Below, in pieces: positions 6,001-61,891 of a stretch of 64,000 nt of DNA (positions are counted from its first letter, which is position 1; each line of letters begins with the position of its first letter). Source of the stretch: Apostichopus japonicus (Eukaryota; Echinodermata; Holothuroidea; Aspidochirotida; Stichopodidae); the NCBI RefSeq assembly GCF_037975245.1, contig NC_092567.1:20149376-20213375 (forward strand), read 5' to 3'. Under the pieces are notes generated by a model. It saw only the letters and a program-made list of their open reading frames with translations. It made no database searches and was not told the origin of the DNA. A program made the translations under genes and the position numbers.

Positions 6001-7820
6001 AAGATGCTTTATCTCACTTGCATCTCTCCAACCAGGGGTTAAATGGGTACCTGTGAGGTAACTTGTCATTGGGCGCAGTATAGAACTGCTGCCGACTGAA
6101 GGGATTGTCTCTGGGACAGATTATCATTGACCAGGGGTAATATAACGTCCGTAAAGCGCTTTGAGACTTATCGCTGGTACAAAGCGCTATATAAAAAGCA
6201 AATATTAAAATATTATTAAAGAGTACTTTTTCGTTAAGGGACAAAATTCTGAGCCTTCAACAATACAAAATCTGAACACTAAATTATTCCCTGTGATCAG
6301 TTGGTTGAGGTTCTACGCTTGCATCATTTCAGCAAATGAAGATTCAACCAGCAAAATTTAACTTGTCTAATATCAATCCCGAGTCATTTTGTAAAATTAA
6401 TATATACGACACATTAAAAATGAATCTTGTAAACAACTTCAGAAAAATTGTGAACTGAGAAGTATAATTTTGTCATCGATACAAGATGGATTTATTCCCG
6501 GATGATCCTGGGCATCTTTTAGAATGAGAGGAAATTCGGATATGCCACTTACCTTCGCCCATTCTTGGAGACAATCCAAGCAAAAAGTGTGATCGCAGCT
6601 CTCTGGGACACCAATGTCGTTATCTCTGAATTGTAACAAGCATATTGGACACTTGTCAGAGTCATCGTCAGACTCACTCTCCGAGACTTCTTCACCAACG
6701 TCACCATCTTTCCTGCCCTCCTCCTCCTCATCTTGACCCTCACTTTCCTCCTCATCATCCTCATCATCCTCATCCTCTTCTTCCTCATCTCCATCATCTT
6801 CACAACAAAATAAAAATTGAAATGACAAATGGATATTATTTCTTTGCCTGAAAAAAGTGCCTTAGAACCAACTGTTAATGTCATGCATTTCTCGATTACT
6901 GAATAAATTAGTGATCACATTTTGTATTTATAAAAGTTTATGGAGTTTTACTAAAATATATAAAGGAAAAAAAATAAATAAAAATAATATCCAAAAATAA
7001 AAGAAATAATAGCCAAAAAAATATTTTAAAAAAATAAAGAAATAATATCCAAAAAATATATATAAAGAACAGTGTTCAAATTACTTTGCAATTTGCTAAA
7101 TCATTCTCTTATATAGCTGTTTGTTTTCTTTACTTTTGAAACATAGCAAAATCTTGTTGAAAAATTGATTTCCTTGTTTGATTGCAGATGTGACAAGATT
7201 AGTTGTCAAAACAAATTGATGCAAAATATATGATCTGACACAGAAAATACTATAGGAATTCAACAGGCAATTGCACCATTGATGGCATCTGAAAAGTTAT
7301 TATTTGTGCCACTGTACTTTTAAGTTACTCCCATGCCTCCAACCTCCCCACGCCCCCATCCCCCACAGCCAAATTTGCTAACACCGCCGATAGCACATAT
7401 GCTATGAACGGTTTAAAAGTAACCTCAAGCACCGTTGTCACATAGTGAAATATGTTAGTAATATAAATACATATATGAATACAAACCTTCATCAAAACCA
7501 TCTTCGCTACTTGCTTCCTCTGATGAGTCCTGGTCATCCCCCCGCCCCCATCCCCCACAGCCAAATTTGCTAACACCGCCGATAGCACATATGCTATGAA
7601 CGGTTTACAAGTAACCTCAAGCACCGTTGTTACATAGTGAAATATGTTAGTAATATAAATACATATATGAATACAAACCTTCATCAAAACCATCTTCGCT
7701 ACTTGCTTCCTCTGATGAGTCCTGGTCATCTGTCTGGGCAATTTCTCCTTCTACCGGTTCGTTCTCTTCGTCAAAGATACTTTTTTCTCCCCCACCTCCA
7801 TTTTCCATATTGGGAGGCAT
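1..7820 (-). CDS. PHRF1: PHD and RING finger domain-containing protein 1, 5' part (runs off left edge)
   Basis: Nuclear RING-type E3 ligase that in vertebrates reads chromatin through its PHD finger and binds the RNA polymerase II tail. Exons in transcription order: 7820-7679, 6797-6553, 5081-4935, 3745-3601, 2659-2508, 1735-1317, 1023-973, 167-1 (continues). All junctions are GT-AG and keep frame, giving about 489 residues. Seen: an acidic N terminus rich in D/E/S; a RING finger at about residues 97-137 (CPIC, CDHTFC, CLDC, then CPVDR across an intron); a PHD finger at about 177-226 ([29 protein letters not shown]); a Lys/Arg-rich block; and a motif resembling the family's SSLGxLRxxIG-LSL-GD region near exon 6's end. 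The last exon carries the family-typical [13 protein letters not shown] and IHRDGTLS. The start could be the Met at 7820 or at 7808; an upstream coding exon is not excluded because the exon opens at an acceptor (7835) with no stop before the Met. Confidence 0.95.
3883..4130 (-). mobile_element. 3' end of an L2/CR1-like LINE, truncated
   Basis: Read on the minus strand, this piece encodes the usual carboxyl end of a non-LTR retrotransposon ORF2: [15 protein letters not shown], then [10 protein letters not shown], then a stop. A short 3' UTR follows, with ggcgctatataaatttgc and an (ATT)n tail. It lies in a PHRF1 intron in the same orientation as the gene. The 5' part is missing, as is usual for LINE copies. 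Clade assignment from this tail alone is tentative. Confidence 0.8.
5905..6215 (+). mobile_element. tRNA-derived SINE with LINE-like 3' tail
   Basis: The head is tRNA-like: an A-box region (tggccaattggctaaggcg), an anticodon-like stem-loop around ggactcgtgatcc and a B-box (ggctcgattcc). A unique body follows, and the element ends in aaagcgctatataaaaagc plus an AT-rich ATT tail. That tail resembles the 3' end of the LINE fragment at 3883-4130, which fits mobilisation by such a LINE. It sits in a PHRF1 intron, antisense to the gene. No clear target-site duplication was found. Confidence 0.8.
7347..7730. repeat. 192-bp tandem duplication covering the 3' end of PHRF1 coding exon 1
   Basis: Two near-identical copies, about 7347-7538 and 7539-7730, lie head to tail; I see only two clear substitutions between them. 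Each copy contains the last ~50 bases of the PHRF1 exon, its splice donor and the start of the following intron. The right copy is the functional one because it joins the rest of the exon. The left copy has lost the exon start; it is preceded by a G-rich stretch on the minus strand and has no convincing acceptor. Confidence 0.9.
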
Positions 7821-14100: not shown

Positions 14101-15417
14101 CGGAAAAATCGAACACTGAGCTCAACATCTGATAAATTTCTCAATTACAGAGGAATGTGAAGGTACTGCATTCGACATCCTTGCATCGAGGTGTTGAAAT
14201 GTTGTTTTCAGTCCCAAAGCCATTCCCTTTTCACAGCCAAGAAATACCAAATACGTGGAAGTCTCTGATCATCAGCAAATTCTCCAGTTGTGCTTAGCAT
14301 AATTTTTGTGGAATGGTTGTTTGGTAAAGCTAAAATGCATTTATCTATGTTTCATTCCTCTTATTAATTTCTAGATCTCTTTGATTGGTCTAACGACTAT
14401 GTGAGGTCTGACTCCAGTCCAAAGGTCCAGCCCAGGAGAAAGCGTGAAACTACAGGAAGAAAGTTAAAAACTGGCCGTGCTGTGAAAGTGAACGGTGAAG
14501 AGGTGGCGTTGTTTAGACTTGGGGAGGAAGTTTTTGCAGTGAAAGAAAAATGTCCTCATCAAGGTGAATAATAGATTAAGATAGACCTGCCAAATCTATA
14601 ATTAGTAAAACTGTGTGAACTATTACAGATAGCCGAACATTTCTTTACTTTCTACCATAGTTGGGTGGAGCGGGAGGGAAGGGGTTTAAATGTGTATGCC
14701 ACAATGGCAATCAGTGTCTCATAAGAATCTCCAGAAGAACACCCTGCAATAATGTAATGAGATACAGTAGAACCTCCATCAAAGTGCTTTGGAAAATGTT
14801 TGGCAGAATAGATCACAGTAGTGATCACCCTCAACCTCCTTCCTCAATGTTTCAGTTTTGCAACCCATGGATGAATGTTTTTGTTTTGTTATAAGATGAG
14901 GTTAGAACCTTATTCCACTTGCCTGCTGATTGTTTCTTTTGTCCTGTTGTACTGACTCCAGTGAGATCTATTGTTTTTAATCTATTTACTAGAGAAATAC
15001 TTAAACTCAGTGCTTTTCAAACTTAAAATCGTACAACAACTTCACATTCCTGTTTTGTAAAGATGTTAAATTTCCACAGTTTCAGTCTTTCAAGAACATT
15101 TGTAAACACATAAAAAACATTTAAAAGTTGTTTGTTCATACTGTCAAGGTTCTTTCTGGGTTTTTTCTCTCTCTCTTTCAATTGTAGGTGGTCCTCTCCA
15201 TCTAGGTGACATCGAAGTCCTGCCAGATAGGTCCCTGTGCGTGCGTTGTCCTTGGCACCATTGGTGCGTAGACCTAGCTAGCGGTCGTGTCCGTAGACCA
15301 AGCGGTAGGACGCAGACCACGAACGTCTACATGACGAAAGTCACAACCGATGGCAACATTTTTGTCGGTTTCAAACATTTCTCCGATCAGTATTTCCAAT
15401 CTCAGTGTGAATTTTAA
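11171..15417 (+). CDS. RFESD: Rieske domain-containing protein (RFESD-like), complete
   Basis: Small soluble Rieske [2Fe-2S] protein; the vertebrate family has no settled reaction. Three coding exons: 11171-11270, 14375-14563, 15188-15417 (519 nt, 172 residues), all GT-AG and in frame. Cluster ligands are visible as C93-P-H95 followed by Gly-Gly (first loop) and C117-P-W-H120 (second loop), the standard CxH...CxxH arrangement with 21 residues between the two motifs. LHLGDIE and LASGR flank the loops as in the family. The N-terminal exon is acidic and lacks a signal peptide or membrane helix, so a cytosolic protein is expected. Length is close to the vertebrate orthologue. The ATG at 11171 is the only Met near the exon start that gives a full-length product. 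Intron 1 (3.1 kb) carries a hAT-type insertion. Confidence 0.93.
12561..14118. mobile_element. hAT-type non-autonomous DNA transposon with 8-bp target duplication
   Basis: The element begins cagtgttcga and ends tcgaacactg, i.e. matching terminal inverted repeats with the CAGTG ends typical of hAT elements. It is flanked on both sides by the same 8 bases, agctcaac (12553-12560 and 14119-14126), the target-duplication length of hAT transposons. The 1558-bp interior has no transposase-like ORF. It includes a palindromic atatcggtatcgg cluster near 12765-12860, so it is a deletion derivative or MITE. It sits in RFESD intron 1. Confidence 0.88.
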
Positions 15418-18400: not shown

Positions 18401-19650
18401 CTGTCCAACTTGACAAGGACGCGACAATCATCGCAGTAAAACGTGTTGGTTGATATGGTTAATTTTATTTCAATGTTGACTCTGTGTCAGGAATCAAGGA
18501 CATATTTCAGAATATGTGTGACTGTAATATGAAACACGGGTGAAGGATTGCCTGTCATAACTTTCCTTCCTCATCAAAATTTAAAAATCATATAAATAGT
18601 CATGCTAAGAAACGTTCGACCGAAATTATGGCTAGTTTCATATTGGTACTAGATATCACGGCTTATCATTTACGTAGCACCACTGTCAAATTTTGCATGA
18701 ACTGACATTTTAATTCGTCACTGCCCGATAGAGTACAGAGTGACTGAACTTTTCAACTGACCATATCCTACCCATCATATATATAGCTAATGCTTTGGTA
18801 GGCCCGTTGATACCCACATCTTCCGTTCGGACTACTTTTCCCCCATCCCCCAAGGGGGTCACCGTCTGTGTACAAGAAGTTCGCAAGTTACTGAATACGA
18901 CTTTTGTACACCTACTTAAATTGTCGGTACCTCTCCTTAAATTGCTGGTACCCCTCCAACCCAGAGTGCCTAGCTACGAGCTTGTGCTTTGGCCTACCAT
19001 GGTACTTGCAAATGTTCATGTCACAACCAGAATTAACACAACAATCACTATCGTCATGGGGTGGGGGGGGGGGGGTGGTGGAGATCTGCTACGCCATGGT
19101 TTGCCCTCTTGTCTATCGCTTTTCATTCGACTGTTTTTGATGTGATGCTTCGGTAACGTTTAGTATTTATGCAGCAACGAGAATTACCCTTTTGGCACTC
19201 CATAGGTATCTGCCAGCAAAATTAGTCCTTATCGTGCAAGAAACTGTTCGAATGGAGTTTTTCATGTGGTTTAACTTGAAATATTTTGTCTGTTTATAAG
19301 TAAGTATGTAATGGATGTATTGTTTCCAAAGAACTAGTCCACCAACATATTATAGCACCAACAGAAATAAAGCACACACATGTATTGCGAGTATTGGAAA
19401 CACGTTATTTCTTATGATAATGGTTTATCGCATGTACCTATTCTGCGATAATTTCAGCTATACAAGTTACTGTACAGTAATCTTAATTCTTATTAACACA
19501 GTAACAATTAACAGTATATCCTTTTGTGGATCACCTCTGCATTCTCCTGATAACATTTAAATTCGATTCATCACTCACTTAAGCCAGAAAGGTACTTAAC
19601 TAATGAAAAGACAGACAGGCAAAATGTTAATTCGAAAACTCACAAAATGG
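15418..19650. other. RFESD 3' UTR and intergenic region
   Basis: No coding sequence recognised. A possible poly(A) signal (gtaaataaagg) lies near 16876. From about 17775 there is a G-rich repeat fragment (ggggcgtagcgagcggg) of the kind dispersed through this window, followed by purine-rich sequence to about 17930. Otherwise AT-rich unique sequence. Confidence 0.4.
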
Positions 19651-27977
<8,327 letters not shown>

Positions 27978-34892: not shown

Positions 34893-37800
34893 ATGGCAGA
34901 AAGTTTGGTGTGGGCCGTGAAAAATGGAGACTTGGATGCACTCAAAAGTCAAGCTGAGGTAATTTGTAAATTAGTGTCAGACACATTATAGGCTGGAAAA
35001 TTAATAACTTTTCATGTTGCATGACAATGGTGTTAATAGTTAGGCCTACTGTAGACTGTAGTGTAGGCTTATTACTAACCTAGCTATTCCTAGGCTCATC
35101 ACTATCAATGCCACAAGTAACGTAAAGTTAGGTTACAGTTCCAACAGGTCTAAGCTAATCATGTGTTCGGCTAACTGCAGGCATATGCAAGGAGGAAATG
35201 ATGTACTGTTGACATCCAGGCATTTCATTACTGTCCGCAGTTTGTAGCGACACAAACAAAACGTCACTTGCAAGCAACAGAAAGTTAACTTTTTCAGATG
35301 GCCGCATGCTGTTTGGGGCGAATCTTTAATGCCTTTAATTGTAGACCTACATAAGTCTGTATGACTAAAGCACACGCCATGTTGTGGTAGTGGACTCTGT
35401 GATTCTATGTTAGACTTCTGCAACTTTTCAGATAGTGGCCACCATTTGGCATGTACTTTCTATCATTGTCATGAACCATTTTTTCATCCATGGATTGTAA
35501 GTACTTTGCTCAAACTTAGAGCATACATTCCAAAAGAATATTATTAAGGAGAAAATAATATTTTCATTTTACAAACCCAGATATATCTTTGCAATGTCAG
35601 CCACTCTATTCAGGTACAATTATATACTGTTCCCTAATGTCACCACCCCACCTTCCCATGTTCCCCAATTGTATTTCCAGGGACAAACTAAAACGAATGA
35701 CAGCGAATGACCGAATGACAATTGACTTTGTACAGGGTTAATTATCATTTGCGAATGACACCGAATGACAACGAAGGACAGTATTGAGAAGAGATAGAAT
35801 GATTAACGGAGTGGAGTAAATGCGGTTATTGGTTTTCTGCGCAAAAATGATTGGAGGAAAATCGCATATAACGTGGTTGCAGGGTTTTGGTGTAATTTAC
35901 GGATAGAAACCACAGGGAAAGTTTTTGTGTGAGAATGCGCTTGAGTGCTGTGCTTTTTACCTCTGTACTGTAGATTTATATAGAAAGATAACTGAAGCCG
36001 TTTCAAGATTATAGTATTGTTAGTTTCTAACAATTAATATCGGAAAAATATACCCACGAAGTCTGAACTGTGATTTCCGGTTGAAGCAAATGTCTGTGCT
36101 GTCATTACTGTCATTCGTTTTAGTCAACGCATTGTTTTAGTGTGTACAACATATTGTCATTCGTTATGTGTAACGCAATTGTCATTCGTTTTAGTAACAC
36201 CCGTATTTCCAGATAAAGAAGCCATGGGACTCTTGGTTTTACCACCTTATATCCTTCTGCACATCTAAAAGGTCACTGATTGTTTTTTTTGTTTGACCGT
36301 CGTTATTTTTCAACATTGAGAAAATTGAATAACATATATGGTTGTACATTAATGTATTAATGAAAGCAATGCTTTTGATGGTATCAATTAGTTTTTTTTG
36401 GGGGGGGGGAATGTTTGACAATTATTGACCATCATTTAAATCTCTTGCATATTTGACGCTCAGTTTTGACAAACTTTAAATAAGATGCACATGGCTCCAA
36501 TTAATTTGCATAGCTATCCAATAATCCAGATTTTTTTTATGATCACTCAAAGTTTTTAAAAACGATATCTGAAAATTTTCAAGATATTTTCATAAAAGCT
36601 TGAAAACTTGAGAGCCTTTGAATGGTTTGATCTTGATCTAGGAAGATGGTCGATAACAGATCTTGAGCTATTTCCGTGGAATTCCAGAATTGAAAGAAAG
36701 ATCCATGTGTATTTATTACCCCCAAAAATAATACTTCCACCACGGTAACCGTGTTGTACCTTTCAGCATGCCGGTATCAACAGTCTTTACAAGGAACAGC
36801 TTTTCTTTACCAGTGCTACACGTAGCATCGCTACGAAAGAACCGAATACTCTCCTCTGTGTTTTTAACGATGAGTGGATCTCTTGCTTGTTTACATTATA
36901 AGTTCGATTGCTTTTTTAAGCTCTCAATTTAGTAAAACATGCTTCACAATTTCCTCATGAATGTACACATATGTGCAAAAGTAGCTGCATTTGTCACATT
37001 TACCCGATGATTTTGACAAATCTACGTAAATGTTCTAAACTCACTGATATACAAACTACGTATCTTTAAACCGCAGGCGTCCGGTTTCGATGTGAATGCA
37101 CAAGTGTTACAGGGTAGAGCGCTAATACATATTGCTGCCGACTACGGTCAAGCTGATGTCATTACGTTCCTCATTTCCAAAGGAGCTGAAGTCAATGTGA
37201 GTATATTTTGCCAAAACTTTTTTCGGCCCAAATTTACACAATGGCTTCCTGAGGTAGTTTCATATTACTTGCTAGAAAATAGACTTTTCTTTTGGAATTG
37301 CTATGTCATCAAAATTTTTGAAGTAAACATGATTTGAAGTACAGTACAGGCAGACAATCCTTATTTAATTTGTCTTACTGATATTAAATTTACACGATGA
37401 TTGCAATTCTTGGTTTCATTTTCAAACTAGTCTCGTTAACTTTGTTCAACAATGTTCACCAATCTTGTGTATTACCCAAACTACTGTTAAGTAATATTGC
37501 TGTTGATCACCCTAAGAAAACCCTACCCGATTTTCTTTCTCTGAGTTTTGCTTTTAAAATTCAAATATTGGTTTGTTGAGCGAGAATTCGATGATATTCT
37601 CAACATTTAGGTGGTAATGAAAACTTTTCCTGGTCATTGACAGTTTATCAATCACTTTTTAAAGGAATAGCAGATAATTTCAACTTTTTGTTTTTAAACT
37701 GTTATTGGGCTGTGGAGGTGGTTGGCAGGGGGAGGGGTGGAGGGGGTAGGAGAAGAAGGCAGTCAGTTCTATAATTTTTGAAAGGTATTTATCCCAGTGA

Positions 37801-40800: not shown

Positions 40801-42554
40801 AAAGTTTGCTGCATCTAGTAAATTCCAATGTATTTGTACGGTACAGTTCATGCCAGCCCAATCTTCCAGAGGTTAGGAGAGGATGAATTTCGGGTGTCCG
40901 TAGGGACCAGTGCAGTGGAAAATTGTCTGGCATTCATCATGTGACCAGCCTTTGGGGTATCTTTGCGGTCATTTAAACCTGGTTCTATCCGATACAACTT
41001 CCAGTGTGTGAGCTTGCCAAACTTTTGTGGCCCCAAGCAGGTCTTCTGGTGGTTCTTCTGGGGGTGTCTCACTCAGCCACATCTAAGGTTGATAGCGCAC
41101 GCACAAGTTTTACGAGTTCGTCATTTTAAATCTTGTTTTTCTCACCTTTTACTTGTTGCTACAGTGTGCAGACAAACATGGCATCACTCCATTGTTAGCT
41201 GCTATTTGGGAAGGACACGAGACCTGCGTTAGTCTATTGTTATCAAAGGTGAGTACGAACAATTTTCCATAATTTCACAAAATTATCCAAGTGACAGCAT
41301 GATATTTTAAAAGACATCATACATTGTGCAGAGCATTCTATTCTGAAATGTTTGCAAATTCAACTTTTATGACTTTAACGAAGGATCTAGTCTTAAATTA
41401 TGTGACCGGCCCCTTGACGAAGGAAATTAAGTAATATTAATTAAAATGATTTCACTTCAGGGAATAGGTTCGTCAGGTATCAGCATTGGCTTAATAACGA
41501 TATACAAAAGATGCATCGCAGTTTGCATCCACTGACTGTTTTGTGTAATTTCATAAGTAGCAATTTAATACAAGATAAAACACTCGCAAAGAACAGCTAT
41601 GTACACCAAATCGTGCAGGCGAAATTGTTCCACGTTTTGTTTGAAAGGTGGTAACACCTTATTAATTTTTACCTCTGTTTGTCAGTCCGTCTCCTTCTCC
41701 CTACTGCTGCTCCTTTTAAGGCTAAAATTGAGTATAATGTCAGCTCCACATTGCAGGCGAAAATGTTAACCTCATATTTATCCATTATTTTGTTAAATTC
41801 AAATAACTCTTATCAGAAACATTTATGTTTCATATTAGTAGCAGAGGACCCTGGGATGCTATTATTATTTATTATTATTACTATGTATTTGATAGAGCGC
41901 TATACAGAAACAAATATAAACTACACAATAAAAACAAACACTAATCCTAAACACAAGCAATAAATACAAACATTTTCTCTGCAGTAAATAAGTAATAAAT
42001 AAATAAAGAAATAGTAAATAAATATTCATCACCATTTATTCAAGGCAAAGTTTTATTGCATTTTCAATTGTGTCATTTTAATAATGCCATAAAAGTGTTA
42101 TTTTTTTCCTATTGAGTTTTTGTTTATTGTTGTGTGTTTGTTTCTGGTTGCATCTGAGGATCTGAACTACTTGCTTGTGTGTTAGACTATTAAAATTGTC
42201 CGGTCGCTTAGAATTCTAATGAGCCTCGGGTACATGTGTAAAATGGTAATCGCTCAAAAATTGATGGTTATTAGTACAGAAATACAACCTGCACTGACAG
42301 CAGGTAAATGTGTTGTAATGGTTTGCAACATATGAAACATAAAATTTTGCATCTGATATGTCAATCATTCATGGTTTTTCACCAAAGGGAGGGGGGAGAG
42401 GGGGGTGGTTATTGTGTCCCCTACAGATGTCTCAACCGATTAGTCTTTCTTTCTTTTAATCAAACAGGGAGCAGATAAGAGCGGCAAGGCACCGAGCGGA
42501 GAGTCATACTTAGATTGTGCAGAGAAGGAAAGCATAAAGCAACTTCTTAGATGA
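34893..42554 (+). CDS. MTPN: Myotrophin (V-1), small ankyrin-repeat protein, complete
   Basis: Myotrophin is a compact ankyrin-repeat protein that binds the actin capping protein CP and keeps it off filament barbed ends. Exons: 34893-34958, 37077-37196, 41165-41248, 42468-42554, all phase 0; total 118 residues, the same length as the vertebrate protein. Seen: [12 protein letters not shown] (first repeat helix), [56 protein letters not shown] and a closing [11 protein letters not shown]. These cover the usual four ankyrin units, with TPL/H-A-A-G-LL-GA consensus positions retained. No signal peptide or membrane segment; cytosolic. Intron 1 contains a MITE (35680-36202). Introns 2 and 3 hold mostly unique AT-rich sequence with a (TA)n tract, a Penelope-like fragment and a LINE tail. 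Confidence 0.96.
35680..36202. mobile_element. MITE with 9-bp target duplication, Mutator-like
   Basis: The 523-bp element starts gggacaaactaaaacgaatg and ends as the inverted copy (cattcgttttagtaacaccc). It is bracketed by the direct repeat gtatttcca at 35671-35679 and 36203-36211. A 9-base duplication is typical of Mutator-like elements. The word gaatgac is repeated many times just inside both ends. No transposase ORF. Located in MTPN intron 1. Confidence 0.85.
38640..38675. repeat. (TA)n microsatellite
   Basis: Two runs of TA separated by a single break, in MTPN intron 2. Confidence 0.95.
39188..39290 (-). mobile_element. Fragment of a repeat related to the 59.5-kb fold-back (Penelope-like?)
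   Basis: It shares over 80 bases with 59535-59640: actgttagcaaactgcttat, then agagagcctgtg and gtgtaaaagtaagttggcc. Here the segment between ggcc and ttcttcaaaggct is deleted, which removes the ribozyme-like core discussed for the 59.6-kb copy. Confidence 0.6.
41855..41925 (-). mobile_element. LINE/SINE 3' tail fragment
   Basis: On the minus strand the word gtatagcgctctatcaaata is followed by an (ATT)n-like tail, matching the shape of the LINE and SINE tails at 3.9, 6.2 and 60.2 kb. Only the tail is recognisable. Confidence 0.5.
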
Positions 42555-45500: not shown

Positions 45501-45795
45501 ATCAGAAATGATGTTGATGAAGATTAAATGAAGAAAAAAGAGAAAAAAAAGGCAAACTTAAGGAAAGAAAGATTTTGTAGAATAGTATTTACATATCATG
45601 GAATAGAATGCTTGCGTTAACCTATCATGATGTACTCCATCTAAAACTAAGTTGCTTCAATGTCAAAGTGATATGGTAAATAACTTTTTGTATACATATT
45701 ACTTCAAAATTTCTTACTTTCTTTTGTATTTAGTCATCGATGGTAATTTGGAAAAAATATAACTCTTAAAAAGAAAGCTAAAAGATTTGTTTGTG
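42555..45795. other. MTPN 3' UTR and intergenic region
   Basis: No coding sequence recognised. A possible poly(A) signal (gaataaat) lies near 42893. G-rich low-complexity patches occur at about 43360-43385, 43570-43600 and 45130-45150. A short tandem pair (ggacgtattaaatattgata) is at about 45450-45500. Confidence 0.4.
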
Positions 45796-46466
45796 TCAAT
45801 TAGTAGTCACTGACTCCCAGATGTGAAGGAAAGAAACTGCAGCTTCCATAATGATAAACTGAAATTGAGGGGGTGAGGTGGAAATCCTATTCCTAACCAT
45901 AGGGATACCTGGTCTAGGAAACTAACCCTTGGGGATCCTATCTGTGGGGAAGGGACCCGTGGGGAAGTCCACCTGCGGTACAAATGCCTCGAAAATGAAG
46001 GTAATATGAAATTTGCTCTGTGTTAATTAGTAGTCACTGACTACATATGGGAAGGAAAGAAATTGCTTCCATAATGATAAACTGAAACTGAGGGGGTGAG
46101 GTGGAAATCCTATTCCTAACCATAGGGATACCTGGTCTAGGAAACTAACCCTTGGGGATCTTATTTGTGGGGAAGGGACCCGTGGGGAAGTCCACCTGCG
46201 GTACAAATGCCTCGAAAATGAAGGTAATATGAAATTTGCTCTGTGTTAATTAGTAGTCACTGACTACATATGGGAAGGAAAGAAATTGCTTCCATAATGA
46301 TAAACTGAAACTGAGGGGGTGAGGTGGAAATCCTATTCCTAACCATAGGGATACCTGGTCTAGGGAAACTAACCCTTGGGGATCTTATCTGTGGGGAAGG
46401 GACCCGTGGGGAAGTCCACCTGCGGTACAAATGCCTCGAAAATGAAGGTAATATGAAATTTGCACT
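45796..46466. repeat. About 223-bp tandem repeat, three copies
   Basis: Three consecutive copies each run from ttagtagtcactgact through ggtgaggtggaaatcc and accatagggatacctggtc to cctcgaaaatgaaggtaata. The second and third are nearly identical with a period of 223-224 bases; the first is slightly longer and more diverged. No conserved reading frame across copies. Confidence 0.9.
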
Positions 46467-48713: not shown

Positions 48714-51700
48714 ATGGAGGCTGGCATGAAGCCATATCCGACGCAGCCTGACACCAGCGAAGATCACATATACAGCCTTGCACATGGCGGTGGTCACGGC
48801 CATTCCCATGGAGACGGTCACGGCCATTCCCATGGTGACGGTCACGGCCATTCCCACGGCGGTGGTCACGGCCATTCCCATGGTGGTGTACCCTGCAGTG
48901 GCCACGGGGATCAAGGCCATGGTAAAGGAACCCATTCAGAGAGTGACATGATGGACCATAAATTGGCGCTTCCATTGCCACCTGGATTTGAACCAAGCCC
49001 CAGGACCCATGATATCGTCAAGGCAACGCAGTACGGCTTAATAGACCAAGTGAAGGAAGTCATCGAGGATGGGTTTGATGTTAATCAGCCCGACCTTGAG
49101 AATGTGACCTTACTACACTGGGCGGCCATAAACAACAGACTGGATATTGCTAGGTATTATAACTACACTTTTTGTGGGTTTTTTTTATACTTAATTCTGT
49201 CTTTCTTCTTTGTATATATAACAGATGTAAAATATTTGGTCGCAAAATATATATGGAGCAAAACTTAGAAATCGTGTATGATACTGTTGGAGCAGACAAA
49301 ATTAATAAGAAGCAAAATTGGAGGGGATAAATGCAACAACTGTAGGCTTAGCAACCAAACATAAAACATTTATTTGACAAAAGCAAGGAACTTCATGGGC
49401 ACCATGGGCAGCAGTTTTTGAGCTTTAAACTTTGTCATACTGTGCCAAGATTCTGTGTTCAATCGCTATACAAAATCATCCCTGCATTTAAATTAAAATT
49501 TAGTCCCTTTGGCATACATTCACATTGTACTGTGCCCGACCAGTTAATCTTTTCCTCTTCACCACAAGTTTACAGGTCGTGTACACAGAAGGCAAAAATA
49601 CCGGCAATGACTCCTTTCTATCCATTTCGTCATTTCTTTTCAAAGGTACTTCATCTCAAAGGGTGCCATTATAGAGAAGCTAGGAGGTGACCTCAGTTCC
49701 ACCCCACTTCACTGGGCGGTCAGACAGGGTCATTTGCCGATGGTCGTTCTCCTGATGCAGTACGGGGCGGATCCTTCCATTCGGGATGGGGAAGGTTACA
49801 GCTGTATTCACATAGCTGCTCAATTTGCACACACTGCAGTTGTGGCTTACTTAATCGCTAAGGGACAGGTGAGAAAATCGATAACCCCCCCCCCCCCAGT
49901 CTTGGCTGTTTCTGATGTCCAGTAATCGAACCATAACAGGTGTTCAGAGGATAGTTTAGTGTTCAAACTTTGTGTAGCAGTTTTAAAGATTTTGAATTTT
50001 GTCTCTGATAAAATGCTTACATTCCTATGTACCAAAACTGCTAGACATATCTGCACTTGTGTAGCTATCTGACCTTTTACATACAGGAAATTTTCCAATG
50101 CGATGCCAGATAAAATGGTCCCTGAGGTGTCTCTATGTGAGATTGTCACTGTGCTTCCCCTCTTGCTTTCTTGGAGGGGGGAGGTGGGGGGGGGTTTCTT
50201 TCTGGAAATTAGACAAGTAGACAACTGTATTGTTGAGAACAGTCTGTAAGGAGTGTGTTTGGTAATAAACAACCATATATGATTGCCTACAGGACTCTAC
50301 AGAAATAGAACAACTGTGGCACAAAAAAACATTAGCTAAAAAAAAAAAAAATCCTTTTTTGTTGAACGTTGTCAGAGACCAGGTACACATGCGAAAATTT
50401 AGCGTGTCTTTCTCTTCCTGAGAATCCTGGACTTGACATCACCATCCTACTGTGCCATTACCCTACAGTGTAAACAAAAAATATGAATCATATGAGACAT
50501 TTGATCTTAGATACAGGAGCTAAAAAGATAGAAATATAAATTATTAAAATTTGTCCCTGCAACAGGAATGTTTGTCTGTTTTAGCAAGTGTCAGATTGTA
50601 CTGTTGTTTGTAACACGCTGTAAAGCCAAGCACAAATTGTGTCCTTTTGTTTTAATTAACAGTTCATTGTTGCTGATAATATTTTTTTTGCTTCCATATT
50701 GACAGGATCCTAACATGGCTGATGCTAATGGAATGACACCACTGATGTGGGCTGCGTACAAGACCTTTGCGTGAGTGTTTCCAATTGGCATGGTTATTAA
50801 AAGTACACGATATGTTGAAATCTCATTATGATTAGCTCAGATCGAAATGTAGCAACGCATTTAGAAATAGCTGTCTTTGTAAATTTATATGAAAATATCG
50901 TTGAGGGTTATTCTCTGAAGCTTGGAGACAGTTACAATGCCTAATAAACTATCTGTTTTTTTTTCGTTTTTTTTACTAATATTTTGTCAATATTTAGCAT
51001 CCTTCTAGCCAGTTTTACCCATTTCTAGAGTGATAAATATCTGTGTGCGTAACTTTTGTGTGCGTGCGTATCGTTTTGTGGTGCATTTATCACTTACCAC
51101 AATGCAGTATTAAAACTGGTCTGAAACTTATTTAAATTAATTAGTTAATTGATTATGTAAATTATGTATCTTTGTGTAAATATTTGATGTAAATAGGCTG
51201 TCACTGATGAGCTGAAATCATAATAATCAGTTTTGCTTTTTAAAGGAACATTCCAGAGGTTGAGCAAAAATTGAGCTGAATATCTGGAAAACCAATCTAC
51301 TCTAGCTATGGAAACATTGCTATTACCCAAATGTTTTCTCTCGGTTCATGACGTGTCGAGACTAACATTCTGCATGATGTGTCACCCCTACAACTTGTCT
51401 CGTTTTTTTTTCTACTACAGGATCGATCCTACGAGACTCCTTCTTACTCTCGGAGCCAGTCCAAATATCCAGGATTCTAAATTTTTAAACGGTCCTCTTC
51501 ACTGGGCTGTCGTTACCAACAATACTGCATCTTTGAAGTGTCTCTTGAAGGCTGGAGCTGATACCTATATGGAAAATAAACTGGTGAGTCTTTATACATT
51601 GTAGCTGTTGCATAAGCGGGGGGGGGGGGGAGGGGGGAGGGGAGAGGAGGTGGATCTCTCTTTGTTGGTATATATCTAGTCATCGAATGGTGAATTTCAC

Positions 51701-54700
51701 CTGAAGATCCTTCCCCTGCTACTTTTCCAGGTGGTATCAAATGTAGGTGGGATGTGATTTCTAGTTAAAACGATATGAAAAGATACTGTGGCTTCTGACT
51801 GGTTATCCCCTCCCCTCAAGTAAAACAAACGGCTAGCTATGGAATCATCACCAGCTGGGGGCTGTAGAGCGCAGGACTGAGGTTACTGGGTTGAATTCAG
51901 TTCTAGGCCTAACTTTCATTTCAGAGCTACAGTAGTCCTGCTGGTCAGCTTAGACCCCCATTAACCATGGGCGGCAAGTCTTGTTCATGTTCATTCACTC
52001 CTCATCACCTGTATTGCTCTCTTTACCGCTACCCATGTCTTGGCCCCTCCCCCGTCCACTCGCACCTCAATATTGAAACGTATATATGTTGGAGTTGAAC
52101 CCACAGCAGTATGTTGTACTAAAGCCGACACCTGCTTACCGATGGCAAGCACACAAATCTGTGGCTTCTAAATATTCTTTGGCCTCTTTACTCATGATAT
52201 CTTTGTATTTTTACTAATTTATCAAATATGGCAACTTTGTAATTGTCGTTGTTTACTCTCGTCCAGAAACAAACACCTCTAGACCTCGCATCCATGAGGA
52301 AGAACGGCTTCCTGATCATGAAACTGAAAGAACATAGAGGCGAGACCGTTCAACAAGCCGGTAATTCACTGCTCAACAGACTGAAACAAAACAAAGTAAG
52401 TTTGTAAAATCAGTCTATTTGCTAAACTTTGTTTTATTTTTGATGTAATGATAAATGCCAAACATTGATCAGTACTTTGGTCTTTTAAATGCAAAAAAAT
52501 CATCTGATGGCTTCAGGAAGTAGTTTATCTAATATCAGCGTGGAGAAAGGTAGGAATAGCAAGTTTGTGGACAAAGGGTTAGAATATTTAGTATTCTTTG
52601 GTAAAAGAGAGAGAGAGAGAGAAAAGAAAGGGGGGCCTGAAGCCTTGTTAGTGCCCAAAAAGTAAAGAATTATGTATCATCATTTTCATTAATATACGTA
52701 AAGAAGACGAAGGCTTCAAAGAGGACCCTGGTGAAGTAAAAGTCCTTAGCGACCAAACTAGCTCTCAACACCACTGTTTGTAGATAATATGCTGATTATC
52801 CATGCCAAACACGAGGTAGAAATATGAAAAATAAGCTGAAGCAAGGGAAGATACTTTTCAATCTTGACAGCAGAGCACCAAATAATTTTGAAAGTGATAC
52901 ACAGAACTTATTCTCCATCTCATCGGGATAAATCGATAGAACCGAGGCTCTCTTGGTGAAAACAAAATTTGTGTAACATATCGTTATGTGCCAGTTGTGT
53001 GGCAGTTTTATTCTCATATGGTGGGGAGTGGGTGGTGTACTTTATAGGTACTGATCACCCAATCCTTGACCGAGAGGTGTTTTTCTGCAAATCTGGATGC
53101 CCAAACTGTTCTGAATCTCTGGATGCTTTCAGTTTAGGTCATGTATAGTGCACACCTGCCACCGCACCGCTTAGGTGTGCTTCTGGGGTGAGGGGCCAGC
53201 AACCCCCCACCCGTCAGTAATTCCTAAGCTGCTGTGAACCACTGATTAGCCCATGTGGATTTCTCTTATAGTGCCTCACAGCCTTTATTAGCTCTTGACT
53301 TATGTCAATCTTCATGGGCTATTGTTCACTCTAGCTTTTATATAAAAAATAAAAAAAATCAGTTAAAACCTTATCGGGGCAATCCTCGGTTAGGTTGTAG
53401 ATGCACGATTTCCTCTCTCCCTGGCTGTCATTTCAACTTCTATCAAAGCCTCATAACGATATCGCCTCTCTTCCTCCTCCTCTCCTCCCGTCTTTCTACC
53501 AGGTCCTCAGGAGACGGATTGCCTCTGTGATGCCGTTCATGATCTTATTCTTCGTCGGTTTCATTCCCTCTCTCGATCTGTCCCTCATGATCCGAATACT
53601 GTTGCTCTGTTTTACCTACTTAGGCCTCTACATGGTTGGAAAGTAAGTCACCGTAAGGCACATGTAATGGAATGGTGTAGTGGTGGTCAGCTTAAGGCCG
53701 GTGCAATGGAATGGTGTAGCAGCGGTCACCGTAAGGCTGTAATGGAATGGTGTAGTGGTGGTCAGCTTAAAGCCGATGTATTGGAATGGTGTAGTGGTGG
53801 TCAGCTTAAGGCCGATGTAATGGAATGGTGTAGCGGTGGTCACCATAAGGCTGATGGAATGAAATGGTGTAGCAGTGGTCACCGTAAGGCTGATGCAATG
53901 GAATTGTGTAGCGGTGGTCACCATAAGGCTGATGTATTGGAATGGTGTAGCAGTGGTCACCATAAGGCTGATGTAATGGAATGGTGTAGTGGTGGTTACC
54001 GTAAGGCCGATGTAATGGAATGGTGTAGTGGTGGTCACCGTAAGGCTGATGTAATGGAATGGTGTAGTGGTGGTCAGCTTAACACCGATGTAATGGAATG
54101 GTGTTGTGGTGGTCACCGTAAGGCTGATGTAATGGAATGGTGTAGCAGCGGTCAGCTTTAGGCCAATGTAATGGAATGGTGTAGCAGCGGTCACAGTAAG
54201 GCCGATGTAATGGAATGGTCTAGCAGCGGTCACAGTAAGGCCGATGTAATGGAATGGTGTGGTGGTGGTCACAGTAAGGCCGATGTAATGGAATGGTGTA
54301 GCAGTGGTCACCGTAAGGCCGATGTAACGGAATGGTGTAATGGTGGTCAGCTTAAGTTGGAAGGAGCGAGTTAAATGGAGACAAAAATCGCAACCAGCAT
54401 CATAGTTCTGTGTGATAGAGATAGCTGTATGTATATAGGCCTACATTGTACCTTAACAAGGGGTATCGCGACGGCAATGGTGTAAGGTGTATCAAACAAC
54501 TGGGTTGAAAAGTTAACTACAGTCTGTGTAGCTTGGCAGCAAACAAAGAAATTGGAGAAATCACTTTGGTGACGTCCTCTGTGGAAGATAAGAAGTCATA
54601 ATCCAGGCTGGCAACAAATCGTACATTACAGCACGCATGCAGGCACACACACACGCACTACAACTCATAGTAGAACTACATATAGGCTGATTGGTATTAG

Positions 54701-57700
54701 TTGCAATCTGAATAGCTTTAATCTGATTGGACAATCAAGAAACATCCCACTCCGACACATTTATCATACAAAAAAGTGAGATATTATTTCAATTTTGTGT
54801 GTATTGTATTGCATCGCATCGCATACATGTAGTTTGAACGGTCTCTTACATTGCACACTTTTTATGGTATTGTGTTTCATCTGCTCGTGTCGCGTAGCAC
54901 ATCGTGTGAGCAGGGCCTTACTTCTTTAATAGCTGTGTCTTATATTTCTTGGATTTGACAATTTATGACAGAGTTATAGTATTTCTTGTTCTCATCATTT
55001 TTTGTTTTCCTTCTCATTCAGGAACATTATGGACACACATGCAGTCGAAATTCTTCCAATTTCTCTTGGACTCAGTACCAAACTTTGTCTCTATTCAACA
55101 TTTTTTTACATACTGTGGCCTCATATCCTTTTTATATATAACAGAAAAAAAATAAAATATAAATAATAAGGATCAAATTTCAGTCTCTGGTATGTACACT
55201 TTTAAGAAAGGAAACACCTCCCCTCCCCCCCCCCCAAAAAAAATAAAGATACTATTTGTGTACTGGGTTTTACCAAATGTAACATCCTAAACTTGAAAGC
55301 CATTACTGATGAACTTTTACCAAGTTAAAATACATGTAATATGACAATTGCAATATATACATTTGTTTTTCATTTTGGGGGTAGAAAATTGGCTTTTTCT
55401 GCATAACATTCAGGCGTATAAAATACCATATTCCGTCAACAACGATCGTTTATGGGAATTGTCGTATTTTACTTGTAAAGGGCAAGCAAGCTTTCGGTTT
55501 GAACAAGATTTGAATGAGTCAACTCTGGGGTTAGAAGCCCTGTGCTTACCTGTATATTCTTAGGGTCACAGGGATTGTAAAACCCTAAGGGTCACTGCTT
55601 CCAGTCCCATTATCATATAAAAAGAGTTGTTTTGCTCGTCTAAATTTGGTTACATATTTTCAGGTGTGTTTTCGATAGTGGATTTTTTAAGTGATATTTT
55701 ATTGTCTGTGAACGAGTGGACTTTAACTCACGTCACACATGTTGACTGCATCAAACAGATTGTCTTCCTCTGCTCGTCCTTCATGATGTTACTGTCGTTT
55801 TACAAATGTTGGAAAGGAGATCCAGGGATCATCAAATGTTCTGAAGACGACCGAAAGAGGGTGAGTAAATCAACATTCGTTCATTCAGTGATGTGGGGTT
55901 GGGTGCTAGTGGAGGGGACAGATGGGTTGTCAGATATTTGAAGAAACATTATTTTAGGCCACAAAAGATGGTTTTTCTTCTTTTGATTTGTGTATGGCCA
56001 ATGATGAGCTCCCCTGATGTGTTGGGCAGTGTGCTTGACTCCCTTGTCCAGCCATTTTAATTTATTTGCCATATATGTAAGGTTTTTTGTTTTTTTTCAA
56101 GAAAATAAAACCAAATATAGCAAAGTAGCAATGTACCCTCCAAAAAGTCTTTGTGTACAGTACGGCAATATATTCACCAAAGCAAGGAGAAACTTGTCGT
56201 AGTGTTGAGTGAAGGTACTTGTAAAGTGTTTTTTTTCCAGTAGGTATGTTGGGCATGTTGATGTTGCTATATTACTGATACTTCAGCTCTGACAGTTGTT
56301 GTGTTGGAATGTCAGAATTGTAACACTACGGATGGATAGTTTATCAATTGGGAGGATGTTGTCGTTCCTTAGATCCACCCCCTTCCAGAAACGCAGCTCT
56401 TTGGTGGGTTGGTCGCAAGATTTTTCTCCAGGGGTTGGAATCAATTTCGTCGGCAGTGTTTTCTGAGTTTGTCGACAGAGGTCGATGAAACTATTTGATC
56501 AACCCATCAATTCCAGAGTCCCAGCTAAGCTTTCGAATATTTCAAACATCGATTCTGAATAGTGGGGGAGGGGAGGGGGTGTGGGGGGTCTGGTTGATTG
56601 TGGCTCAGTCCTCTTGGAAGATGGAAGGTCACGGGTCATGCAGGCTTAAAGTTTGCTGGTCCGGCCGCCGCAGATCATGCATTGTAATCTAATCAGTAAA
56701 TTTCTTTGTCCCTAAAATTTGTGTTTTTTCTGACTATGATTTTGTTTGTACTACTTACAGAGGCGTTTTGTCAGAAAAATTATTCCTTTTCTTCTTTCAT
56801 AAAGTTGTGGAAGTGGATATGGGTAGGGAAAGATTAGGGATTTCCAAAACCCTTCTCAATGAAACTTTAGACTAATATTTCCTTTTCTTATATTCTTCAA
56901 GCAGACCATCATCGAGTTAGCGGAAACATCGACGCTGGAGTTAGACAGATTCTGTACCACCTGTCTGATTCGTAAACCCGTTCGTTCCAAACACTGTTCT
57001 CAATGCGACCGCTGTGTGGCCAAGTTTGACCACCACTGCCCCTGGGTGGACAACTGTATCGGTGAGACATACCGCTTTATTCGTTCTACCTTTTGCCGGT
57101 AATTTCTGTTGCATATGTGTGCTGTTTTTGACTGAACCCTGCCATTCTTGTGGTAAGAGGAACCTGAAGCATAGTCTGGGATACTGTCGCGTCCGTCCCG
57201 GTACGGGAAGGCAGATTTCGATGGTCACGTGGAAGGGACGACACGAATAACGTAAATTATCAGTGCAACAGAGATATATAATGATTTCGTTCTATTTATT
57301 TTGCAGGATTGATTAGATTAAATATGTTGAAACCTATATAATTTGGGGTAATAATATGTTTAACGTGCCTTTCACACACGGAGACCTTACACGGTAAAGG
57401 TTAACAGTAAGACTGAAATGTCTTACAAAACTGCCATACACGAGGTAAAAGACATGATACTTTCACCCAATCATAACTAAATGTTTCTGTCACAAGACAG
57501 CAGCAGCCAATCACACTCTTGATTTAATTCCTGGAAATCATTTAAGGGACGTACATCTGCATCTATTAAATATACATGTGGGTTCACGACACTATAAGTG
57601 TTTGACCTAACAGATACTAAGGTCATTTCATTGGCATAATGTAACTCTGAGACAAACTTAATGCATTCACCTAAACACTGGCTCTGGAAAACAGTTTTAC

Positions 57701-60700
57701 CCAAATTCAGGTGTGGAGAGGGTGGGGTGGGGAGGGGGTGGGGTATTTGGACCAGTTCAGCAATTGTTTTACTTTTTATCATGTTCATCTCTGTGTGAAG
57801 GCTTTGGTTAAACAAGTCCATCATTGAATCAAACTCAGGACAGTCAAGATGGAAGGTGATTGACAATCGTTTGGTTTCAGTTTAAAATGATTATTATCGG
57901 TTTATTTCTTTGACTTTTGTACAGACGTCATTATTTTTAAAAAAGGAATTCAAAGTGAAAATTTTCACCGTAGATTTGGGCATTATCATCTCTCAGTAAT
58001 TTTGGTTCATGATAACATCAATCACAGTCGTGGGTGTATGTGTGGTGGTGTTTGGGGAAATGAGAGAGAGTGGAGGGGGATGGGGGGTAAGGGGCATAGA
58101 GGAGGGTAGAAGTAATTGTGCTTTGATTGTTTTTACTAATGCCTTCATCTTTTCTCCCATGGTGTCTTTGACAGCGGGTGTAGGTTCTCTCCTGAGCTGT
58201 AAAAAATATACTCATAATTTCCATTTTTCTTCTTCTTTGTTATCAGGTTCCGGCAATCATATGTGGTTTATCTTTTATCTGACATTTCTGCCTCCCTGCC
58301 TCGCGATCTGCATCAATGGCATGTTGCACTGTAAGTCGGGTTGCCTCCTTTCAGATAGTGTTAAAAGTGTTAGTTGTTTTCATTTGATACTTGTAGCTTC
58401 CTATTTTATAAATTGTTTGAAAATATAGTACTGACATAAAAATGAAACAGAACCTTTTTATTTGGAATCTATATTGTGAGCATAAATCTGGGAGTATGGT
58501 ACACAAAGCAATGAGATGATAAGGGTATCTTAGAAGGTAATATTGCTGATTTACTACACATAAACAAGGCATTTGAAATAATCAAAATTGTGTTGTCTTT
58601 TGACATTTACTGACAGGAACCTTTAATGTCATAACACATTGTGTGAAAGACTCCTCCTCCTCCTGCTCCTCCTCCTGCTCCTCCTCCTGCTCCTCCTCCT
58701 CCTACCCCTCCCCTCCCCCTCCCTGCTCCTCCTCTCCCCGCCTCCTCCCCCTCCCCCTCCCCTCCTCCTCCTCTCCCCTCCCAATCCCCCTCCTCCCCTC
58801 CTACTCCTCCCCTCCTCCTCCTGCTTCTTCTACTCCTCCAACCTCTCATCCTCCTCTTCCCCTTCCTCCTCCTCCCCCTCCTATGCCCCACCTCCCCCTC
58901 CTCTCCCTCCTCCTCCTTCTACCCCTCCACCCCCTCACCCTCCATGCTGTATGCAAGTCCCCCCCCCAACTTTTTCCACTTTGACATGCCAAACATAAAT
59001 TGACCTCTCGAGTAATTATTTTGACCTGCTGTCATCTTCAGTGCTACTACTGGCTAGTGCAGGCTGTCTGTATGTGGCTTGTGCAGGCTGGCTAGCTGTC
59101 TGTCTGTATCTGTGTACATGTGATTGTGAAGTTAATTACACAGAAACGGAAAACAAAAAACATAAGCCAACTGAAATTGACAGTTGCAATTTCCTACGTT
59201 ACACTAACAGTTTCTTTTTCAAGGTTTGTACTTCCTGTACGAGTCGAACATATGTTTCCGTCATGTCCATTGCAATTAGTAGTGTAGATTGTATTTCATG
59301 TTAGTGAAGGCATGGGTATGGCATTGATTGCAGTCAATGTTAAGACGTGAAAATATCTGTCTTTATTACATCCCTTTGTTCATGTCAGGGTTAAAAAAAA
59401 AAAATTATGTAGCCTGTCTGGGTCTGTATAGTCAGTAGCAATTCTAAATTGGATTCGGAAGATTTGATTAGATTAACCGACAAGGAAACAAGATTTATCT
59501 TAAATCATCACACGTTTATACTTTAAATTAAAATAAAATAAAACTGTTAGCAAACTGCTTATCCACTAGAGAGCCTGTGTAAGAGAATGTGTAAAAGTAA
59601 GTTGGCCTGACGTCCTAGCAGGATCTTCTTCAAAGGCTAAAAACAGCCTTTGAAGAAGCCTTTTTTTTAGCCTTGTTTTTTTAGCCTTTGAAGAAGATCC
59701 TGCTAGAATCAAAGTCAGGCCAACTTACTTTTACACATATACTTTAAATTGAGAGAAATAGCTGTTGATCAAACCTTCCATGTCATTTTTCCTAGATTGG
59801 TCGGATGTTTGCCACACGACCTTCGAGGTGGACGGTTTCTGGATCTATCTCGGCCAGGTGACCACCTGTTCCCCGTGGACCTTCTGGATGTTCCTCAACG
59901 CCATCGCTCACATCACTTGGGTCTTGGCTCTCTTGCTTAGTCAACTTTTCCAGGTAATCATATAAGTTATAATATAAAAGGAGACTACAAACCCAAAACA
60001 ATCATTATCGGTTTTATGTGATAAGAGACAAGTGTCACAAACAATCTCTGCCAATTTGCTGAGAAAATATCTCATTCGGTTTCAAATCAGCTCTCAAAAC
60101 GTATCTTTTCACCAAAGCATATATGTTATATCTGTTATTATTATGCTAAGCGCTACGAAAATTATTTCATAATTTGTTTGGCGCTATATAAAAATGATGT
60201 ATTATTATTATTATTATTCCGGTTGAGAGATATCACAGAATTTTATAATTCCACAGAACACCACGCTGAAGACTTGATCAAGTCTAAATCTCACGTCGTC
60301 GTATCACATGTGCTTCATATTTTGACATTTTGTTTTCGTTGTCTTTATTTAAATTTTATATTCTCCTACTTGAGATGGGTTTAGCAATTTCTGCTGAAAT
60401 CTAAAATATTGAACCTTCTTGACATGACCTAATGGCTGCATCGGTTACAGTTTCGTTACTAGACATTTCACTTTGACAAATATTGAAAGATTAAAAAACC
60501 AAAGAGAAAGTAAATGTTTCAGATGCTCATGGCACTATGACATTACAGATTTAACAGATTTAGGAAAGGATAAATTCTCGACACGACTCTTTTAAACTAC
60601 GATATCCCTACGACTCTTCTTGGCTGTTGGGGATGCGGGGAGTGGGGGGGGGGTTGTTCCCAAAGATCTCTGTCATATAAGCCATATGGTTTGGTTTGTG

Positions 60701-61891
60701 TGTCCTTTTCAACATTTTCCTTCTGGGTCGTAATTTGCTCCTGTTCAGGGTTGTAATTTTCCTCCTCCTATTCATGTGGTATTCACACAGTTCCAGAGTA
60801 CAAATAATAATGAAGTATAGAAAGAATACTTAATCATCCTTAGCCAGATTATGAAAAGAACCAAAAAATAAAAACAAATAGCATAGTATTCTCTTTGTGA
60901 TCAAGCAATAGACCAGTGCTGCATTGGTTATTTTAAATAACAGGTTTTCTCAAAGTGCCCACATGGTGAACGTGAGGAAACTATGGGTTGCTATGGTGAA
61001 CGTCTTTTGCCATTGACAAAATCTAAATAGGAGAGAACTGGCAGGTGAAAATCCACCCAACTCTAATTAGAAGGTGTCGTGAAATTTTGGTACGTTCTGA
61101 TGACACCTTCCCGCATTCCCTTTCATGAGGGATTATGATTCACCCGCCGCCTCCTCCTCCCACCCCGACCCCCTCCTCCACCCCCCACCCCGACCCCCTC
61201 CATCCTAACAAGTTTCTCTTTTGTTTGCCTGTAGGTCCTCGTGCTCGGTGTGACTACCAACGAGAGAATGAACCAGACCAGGTATATCAAACAGCACAAG
61301 GACGACGTCCATCAGAAAGGAAAGACCCCTTACAAGTGAGTAGTAGTAGTACCACGGAAAAGAGGGTCGGTGAACGAGCAAAGCGGTTCTAGATCCTTGT
61401 AAATATTATCAAGTAGCTCAGCCTTTTTGAGCCGATTTTGATATTTGGTTGATATTTGCGATATGAAAATGACCCAACTGTTCTTTTTCACAATTGATTT
61501 TTTTTTAATAAAGAGAAGATAGTGTGTGGATGATTAAAATGCTAATCGGGTAATCTTTTAACGGCGCTTCATCTTTCCGCTTGACAGCGGAGCGACGTCT
61601 CGTATCCACGGGCCGTGACCAAAAAAAATTCAAAGAACGGTGTAACTAGAATTAAGTGGTAAACAAGCATCATTCTGAATTCAAATGCCTCTTGTCTCGT
61701 TTTCTCTTTTGCTTGCGGCGTTTAGCCGAGGGTTAATCAAGAACTGTGCCGACTTCTTCCAGTGCGGTTGCTTCGGACTCGTCCGACCCCTGAGAGTCGA
61801 CTGGACCCATCAGTTCACCACCGACCTCACTAACAACGGAGTGTCCAATTTCGTGAGCTCCTCGAGCAGAGAGAATTATCAGTTTGTGTGA
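48714..61891 (+). CDS. ZDHHC17: ZDHHC17/HIP14 ankyrin-repeat palmitoyltransferase, complete
   Basis: Golgi/vesicle membrane S-acyltransferase that recruits substrates through its ankyrin repeats. Exons: 48714-49153, 49646-49868, 50706-50770, 51421-51583, 52267-52395, 53503-53642, 55022-55122, 55739-55860, 56905-57061, 58247-58330, 59796-59953, 61235-61335, 61726-61891; 2049 nt, 682 residues, versus 632 in human. Order: His-rich segment (residues 24-58); DIVKATQYG; ankyrin repeats about 100-330 with [12 protein letters not shown] and [12 protein letters not shown], which hold the Asn and Trp used by HIP14 to grip substrates; TM1-2 (exons 6-7); TM3 (exon 8) and KGDPGIIK; Cys-rich domain from residue 478 with catalytic DHHC at 503-506; TM4; a long luminal loop; TM5-6; TTNE; C-terminal NCADFF-CGCFG region; end YQFV. 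The intron between exons 7 and 8 is of the U12 AT-AC type. The N-terminal Met lies directly after a possible acceptor, so an upstream coding exon cannot be excluded. Confidence 0.95.
48792..48887 (+). repeat. 24-bp coding tandem repeat (GHGHSHG[G/D])
   Basis: Four head-to-tail copies of a 24-base unit (ggtcacggccattcccatgg plus four bases) encode GHGHSHGG or GHGHSHGD at residues 27-58 of ZDHHC17. The copies differ mainly at third positions and at the Gly/Asp codon. Confidence 0.95.
51850..52155 (-). mobile_element. Possible degenerate tRNA-derived SINE
   Basis: Minus-strand words resembling an A box (atcggtaagcaggtgtcgg) and a B box (gggttcaactcc) lie at about 52090-52145. A second tRNA-like patch (tgtagagcgcagga ... 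gggttgaattc) lies at 51868-51900 on the plus strand. It could be a composite of two decayed copies. Confidence 0.35.
53651..54365. repeat. 39-bp intronic minisatellite, about 18 units
   Basis: Units of 39 bases (one of 36) with core atggaatggtgtag, then a tggtcacc or tggtcagc word and gtaaggc or ttaaggc, then cgatgta. It begins within ten bases of the ZDHHC17 exon 6 splice donor at 53643. The period is a multiple of three, so ORFs stay open on both strands; they are by-products of the repeat. Confidence 0.95.
55123..55738 (+). other. U12-type AT-AC intron of ZDHHC17
   Basis: The intron begins atatcctttt, matching the minor-spliceosome AT-AC donor consensus ATATCCTTT at all nine positions. 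It ends cgtcacac|AT, with a branch-point-like ctttaact whose A (55725/55726) lies about 13 bases before the end, the normal U12 spacing. Joining 55122 to 55739 restores a CAT codon and a gap-free alignment to HIP14 between ...FYILWP and VDCIKQ.... No GT donor in the exon gives a sensible frame. Confidence 0.88.
58648..58985. repeat. Polypyrimidine (CCT/CTC)n tract
   Basis: About 330 bases of almost pure C/T on the plus strand, mostly tcctcc units with C-runs. It lies in the ZDHHC17 intron between exons 10 and 11. Long ORFs on both strands here are low-complexity artefacts. Confidence 0.95.
59520..59748. mobile_element. Fold-back copy of a Penelope-like terminal repeat with hammerhead-like remnants
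   Basis: Two inverted arms, about 59585-59640 and 59680-59738, share gtgtaaaagtaagttggcc, agcaggatcttcttcaaagg and their inverse. Each arm, read in the sense agcctttgaagaagatcctg..., resembles a small hammerhead ribozyme: a TTGAAGA core, a gatcc-loop-gatc hairpin (stem II), a GAAAC-like word and gtcaggcc closing stem I. Both copies have lost bases of the GAAA core, so they are presumably inactive. Hammerheads of this compact kind are known from Penelope-like retroelements. Confidence 0.5.
60050..60215 (+). mobile_element. 3' end of an L2/CR1-like LINE, truncated
   Basis: The plus strand encodes [15 protein letters not shown], the usual C-terminal motif of LINE ORF2. A short 3' UTR follows with taagcgctacgaaaatt and ggcgctatataaaaatg, then an (ATT)n tail. 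Same family type as 3883-4130. Lies in a ZDHHC17 intron. Confidence 0.75.

Follow-up and report, generated by a model that had tools for sequence, protein, structure and literature searches.

A predicted U12-type AT-AC intron within the membrane-coding part of the ZDHHC17/HIP14 orthologue of Apostichopus japonicus

The ZDHHC17/HIP14 gene of the sea cucumber Apostichopus japonicus appears to contain, as its seventh intron, a U12-type AT-AC intron whose removal would join base 55122 to base 55739; we assign this reading a probability of roughly 0.93. The preliminary description had placed such an intron in the region coding for the transmembrane segments, and the proposal has been borne out by the donor, the distance between branch site and intron end, the terminal AC, the reading frame and the identity of the gene. 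It is also backed by matches to the U12 and U6atac RNAs and by a control intron in the PHB2 gene of the same genome. The other 11 introns of the gene, all with GT-AG termini, look like ordinary U2 introns, intron 7 being the single exception among 12.

The window, by which we mean the whole stretch of 64,000 nucleotides that was analysed, harbours a gene that is, judged by the protein it predicts, an orthologue of ZDHHC17/HIP14 (Table 1). The model is a single open frame with no internal stops, and an upstream extension of its 5' end may exist, because a possible cag acceptor stands immediately before the ATG. The predicted protein shares its architecture and its ankyrin domain with human ZDHHC17/HIP14: ankyrin repeats and a DHHC domain are both detected above the Pfam cut-off, the ankyrin domain structure of the human protein (3eu9) is matched with an E value of 4.9e-94, and the best PDB matches are 3eu9, 5w7i and 5w7j, all of them human HIP14/ZDHHC17 ankyrin structures with E values below 1e-92.

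Table 1. Coordinates of the gene model and of the splicing signals around intron 7 (positions are those of the window)
Feature	Position	Strand	Remarks
ZDHHC17/HIP14 orthologue (predicted)	48714..61891	+	13 coding exons, 682 aa; built by hand, with homology and splice signals as guides
Coding exon 6 (TM1-TM2 region)	53503..53642	+	ends in phase 2, GTAAGT donor
Coding exon 7	55022..55122	+	33 protein letters, ends in phase 1; aligns to human ZDHHC17
U12-type AT-AC intron 7 (predicted)	55123..55738	+	616 nt, phase 1
U12 5' splice site ATATCCTTT	55123..55131	+	9/9 consensus match
Decoy U2-like acceptor ttttcag	55661..55663	+	exon from 55664 adds 25 in-frame residues
Putative U12 branch site GACTTTAAC	55719..55727	+	6/9 consensus match
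AC 3' splice site	55737..55738	+	sequence
Coding exon 8	55739..55860	+	41 protein letters; H codon spans the exon 7/8 junction
Coding exon 9, DHHC motif FDHHCPW	56905..57061	+	gene model and Pfam

Tandem repeats occur in and around the gene. A 24-nt repeat of 4.4 copies (48783-48888) encodes a histidine/glycine-rich stretch in the predicted HIP14 N-terminus, and a 39-nt unit repeated 18.3 times (53647-54356) lies in intron 6 right behind exon 6; since the unit length is a multiple of three, long parts of this array remain open in both strands. A 223-nt repeat is present in three copies with 96% matches at 45785-46463. Elsewhere in the window, the KRR1 small-subunit processome gene, with its KH1 and KH2 exons, lies upstream of ZDHHC17 on the same strand (20542-22247), ankyrin-like exons (37017-37334, 41096-41269) are perhaps part of a separate small ankyrin gene, a RING finger exon is found on the minus strand (6442-6861) and an exon resembling a soluble Rieske-type ferredoxin on the plus strand (15106-15414).

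Exon 7 ends with ...TGGCCTC, intron 7 begins with ATATCCTTTT and ends with ...GGACTTTAACTCACGTCACAC, and exon 8 resumes with ATGTTGACTGC, so that the predicted spliced product carries ...TGGCCTC joined to ATGTTGAC and a histidine codon is assembled as C/AT across the junction (a slash marks splice boundaries here and below). Since each edge of the intron carries a copy of CAT, the junction can be placed in four ways that yield an identical mRNA, and none of the four has GT-AG termini. The signals were scored against the consensus motifs of the U12 donor and branch site (for the latter TTCCTTAAC, also TTCCTTRAC). On this measure the donor is, as had been claimed, a perfect U12 match, whereas the other 11 donors of the gene agree at 2-5 of nine positions. 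The branch site proposed about 13 bases upstream of the AC end fares less evenly: its position holds, the candidate branch adenosine being 55725 or 55726, 13 or 12 nt before the last intron base, but GACTTTAAC agrees with TTCCTTAAC at only 6 of the 9 positions. The best branch matches in the 11 GT-AG introns range from 5 to 7 of 9, and by itself the motif does not discriminate, because four of these introns reach 6 or 7. Preceding the 3' end, the share of pyrimidines in intron 7 is 0.59, the lowest of the 12 introns, compared with 0.71-0.88 in the others, in keeping with the lack of a strong polypyrimidine tract expected of U12-type introns. The distance of 12-13 nt falls within the optimum of 11-13 nt between branch site and 3' end given for U12-type introns in PMC3584512.

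Could an AT-AC intron of this kind be excised by the major spliceosome? AT-AC introns of U2 type do exist, and according to PMC2831892 every such intron in the sodium channel genes carries G at +5. Intron 7, by contrast, carries C at +5 and +6, and its donor matches the U2 consensus at 3 of 9 positions against 9 of 9 for U12, which leaves this explanation the most improbable of those considered.

The junction was also compared with its alternatives. If exon 7 may end anywhere between 55040 and 55299 and exon 8 may start between 55560 and 55809, 476 junctions whose termini are GT-AG, GC-AG or AT-AC can be enumerated, 66 of which are in frame and open (53 AT-AC, 13 GT-AG or GC-AG); the statement that only the favoured junction restores the frame was therefore too strong. 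Scored against a fragment of human ZDHHC17, the favoured junction reaches 424 and none of the 13 GT-AG or GC-AG junctions fits the protein better, the best of them scoring 403 with a donor that shares 2 of 9 positions with the U2 consensus. Seven of the 66 open junctions, however, outscore it (up to 437), all of them AT-AC pairs without a U12 donor, the top two of which keep a few more loop residues. Because of these seven pairs, homology sets the region of the junction but not its exact base or the length of the loop; the exact base is fixed by the U12 donor.

It is very unlikely that the junction belongs to a normal U2 intron with GT-AG termini and weak splice sites, next to which the U12-like signals would be coincidental. 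In-frame, open GT-AG junctions are available to such an intron, for instance with 55114 or 55086 as the last base of exon 7 and 55692 or 55664 as the first of exon 8, and two of them use the ttttcag acceptor. The donors required, ACT/GTGGCC and TTT/GTCTCT, nevertheless match only 2 and 3 of the 9 U2 consensus positions, the junctions score 403 and 382 against 424, both proteins are 13 residues longer than the favoured one, and a perfect U12 donor would have to stand at the end of exon 7 by coincidence. The ttttcag acceptor had been put forward as a trap for automatic gene callers that would add about 25 wrong residues: the number is right, exactly 25 extra in-frame codons being gained, but a caller limited to GT-AG cannot keep the exon end at 55122, and the best-scoring GT partner of this acceptor, a weak site after 55086, also costs 12 residues.

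A second possibility retains the U12 AT donor and employs another AC acceptor, or several. Three AC acceptors are in frame with this donor: besides 55738 (score 424, branch 6/9) these are 55756 (420, 5/9) and 55792 (393, 6/9), both of which leave the frame open. The first comes close to the favoured end in score, yet its branch match is poorer and it deletes six residues, and the second deletes 18 residues of TM4. Use of either acceptor is less probable still than an ordinary U2 intron, and an end at 55738 is the preferred reading.

How often such an arrangement would arise by chance was estimated from shuffled sequences. The ten-mer ATATCCTTTT occurs twice in the window (19516 and 55123) where shuffles predict 0.41 copies, and it is by itself no proof, because two or more copies also arise in 7 of 100 window shuffles. 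The copy at 19516, which precedes the ATG of KRR1 (20545) by approximately 1 kb, was not taken as an intron. Intron 7 itself was shuffled 4000 times with its dinucleotides kept and the exons unchanged, an in-frame, open AT-AC pair near the exon end being required. A donor of 9/9 accompanied by a branch match of at least 6/9 was recovered in 2 of the 4000 shuffles, and in 5 when no branch site was demanded; laxer donors raised the count to 29 (8/9) and 173 (7/9). A chance origin for donor, branch site and AC end jointly in frame at the end of exon 7 is unlikely. An earlier version of the test with a branch threshold of at least 7/9 (24 of 5000 shuffles against one real match) was set aside, as that real match cannot be the proposed 6/9 site.

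The assembly (671.6 Mb in 35 contigs) was searched for components of the minor spliceosome. Among the best candidates scored, at least one match to U12 snRNA (115.9 bits) and at least one to U6atac snRNA (104.2 bits) extend over the full model length and exceed the Rfam cut-off; the 64 kb window contains no Rfam match at the gathering threshold. The 5' region of the U6atac candidate reads GAAAAGGAGAG and includes AAAAGGA, whose reverse complement, TCCTTTT, makes up seven nucleotides of the intron 7 donor (55126-55132). The U12 candidate carries GTAAGGAAAAT, the stretch of this RNA that pairs with the branch site.

PHB2, for which Table 2 of PMC2831892 records an AT-AC U12 intron in both fly and human, served as a control. 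With human PHB2 as the query, an orthologue was located on contig 11; five of the eight fetched loci entered the donor scan, the three on contig 23 being omitted as a paralogue. The exon ending ...AEGEAEAAYM is directly followed by ATATCCTTTT, ten donor bases identical to those of ZDHHC17 intron 7, and the intron, 1892 nt in length, ends with TGCCTTGACATCATTTTCTTAC before LGEAITKNPGYLKLRK, in frame; the junction reads EAEAAYM/ATATCCTTTT...TGCCTTGAC-ATCATTTTCTTAC/LGEA. On the evidence of this donor and this in-frame intron end, predicted AT-AC U12 splicing signals are present in the genome where they are expected.

Other genes of the palmitoyltransferase family were surveyed with the membrane and DHHC region as a query. 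Among the 28 best candidates scored, the 21 matches comprised six at the ZDHHC17 locus, corresponding to its individual exons, and a further 15 elsewhere on other contigs. None of these 15 covers TM1-TM4, since their alignments start no earlier than query residue 122; no second HIP14-like gene was seen among the 28 candidates. U12-like donors were sought at 14 of the 15 off-locus places, the fifteenth having no locus, and one stands directly behind the DHHC exon at two of the 14 (GTATCCTTT donors), donor-like words elsewhere in the flanks being passed over. The two genes are presumably ZDHHC16-like and ZDHHC5/8-like, names that come from comparing short exons with sequences of the family. In the ZDHHC16-like gene (G000:C5:23377404 onwards; L029, L033) the candidate intron is of U12-type GT-AG form and splits the codon after DHHC: KMDHHC/GTATCCTTTT...TCTCCTTAATCCTACTTCTTACAG/CCTGGCTGAAC, 1987 nt, restoring DHHCPWLNNCVG, with the exon resuming as PWLNNCVG. 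In the ZDHHC5/8-like gene (G000:C15:793880-793993; L028, L034) the donor GTATCCTTTAC follows ...GDHRTII, and no acceptor was found in the flanking stretch examined. The minor-type donors of the three DHHC genes do not represent one shared intron, because they lie before (ZDHHC17), at (ZDHHC16-like) and after (ZDHHC5/8-like) the DHHC motif.

A GT-AG intron of U12 type is described for ZDHHC8 in fly and human in PMC2831892, and the donor of the ZDHHC5/8-like gene is perhaps this known intron. Both it and intron 7 are minor introns of DHHC palmitoyltransferase genes, and the genome has a GTATCCTTT donor in its ZDHHC5/8-like gene; the ZDHHC8 intron, in contrast, is GT-AG and its candidate here lies downstream of the DHHC motif, whereas intron 7 is AT-AC and lies between TM3 and TM4, upstream of the motif. 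Other parallels are the U12-type AT-AC introns of PHB2, STX6, SLC9A7/Nhe3 and KCMF1 listed in Table 2 of PMC2831892, with which intron 7 shares a ATATCCTT donor, a nearby branch-like site, an AC end and the condition of a lone minor intron among GT-AG neighbours; the difference is that ZDHHC17 is absent from that table's set of 19 fly introns. In the papers searched, ZDHHC17 is nowhere coupled with a minor or U12-type intron, nor CG6017 with U12; a minor intron of ZDHHC17 may already be listed elsewhere, for instance in supplementary tables or intron databases. That intron 7 is a lineage-specific gain or a conversion from U2 to U12 type, and that several palmitoyltransferases (ZDHHC17, ZDHHC16-like and ZDHHC5/8-like) depend on the minor spliceosome, is a doubtful proposition.

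If intron 7 is of U12 type, its donor ATATCCTTTT would be recognised by U11 and then by U6atac, GACTTTAAC would be recognised by U12 with a bulged adenosine 12-13 nt before the intron end, and the minor spliceosome would join 55122 to 55739, so that the palmitoyltransferase would regain its TM3-TM4 segment. Both the actual splicing and any regulatory effect that might attend it are inferred. Translation into the unspliced intron meets a stop after 14 further codons, and slow splicing or retention would truncate the frame; a regulatory role on this basis is speculation.

The mechanism of AT-AC U12 splicing is well known, and what is new here is the ZDHHC17 example. It corrects the gene model of a neuronal palmitoyltransferase within the portion that codes for its membrane region, at a spot that a predictor confined to GT-AG introns would probably damage. 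ZDHHC17 is thereby added to the candidate host genes of minor introns, and a comparison across animals could ask whether this intron is ancient or was gained.
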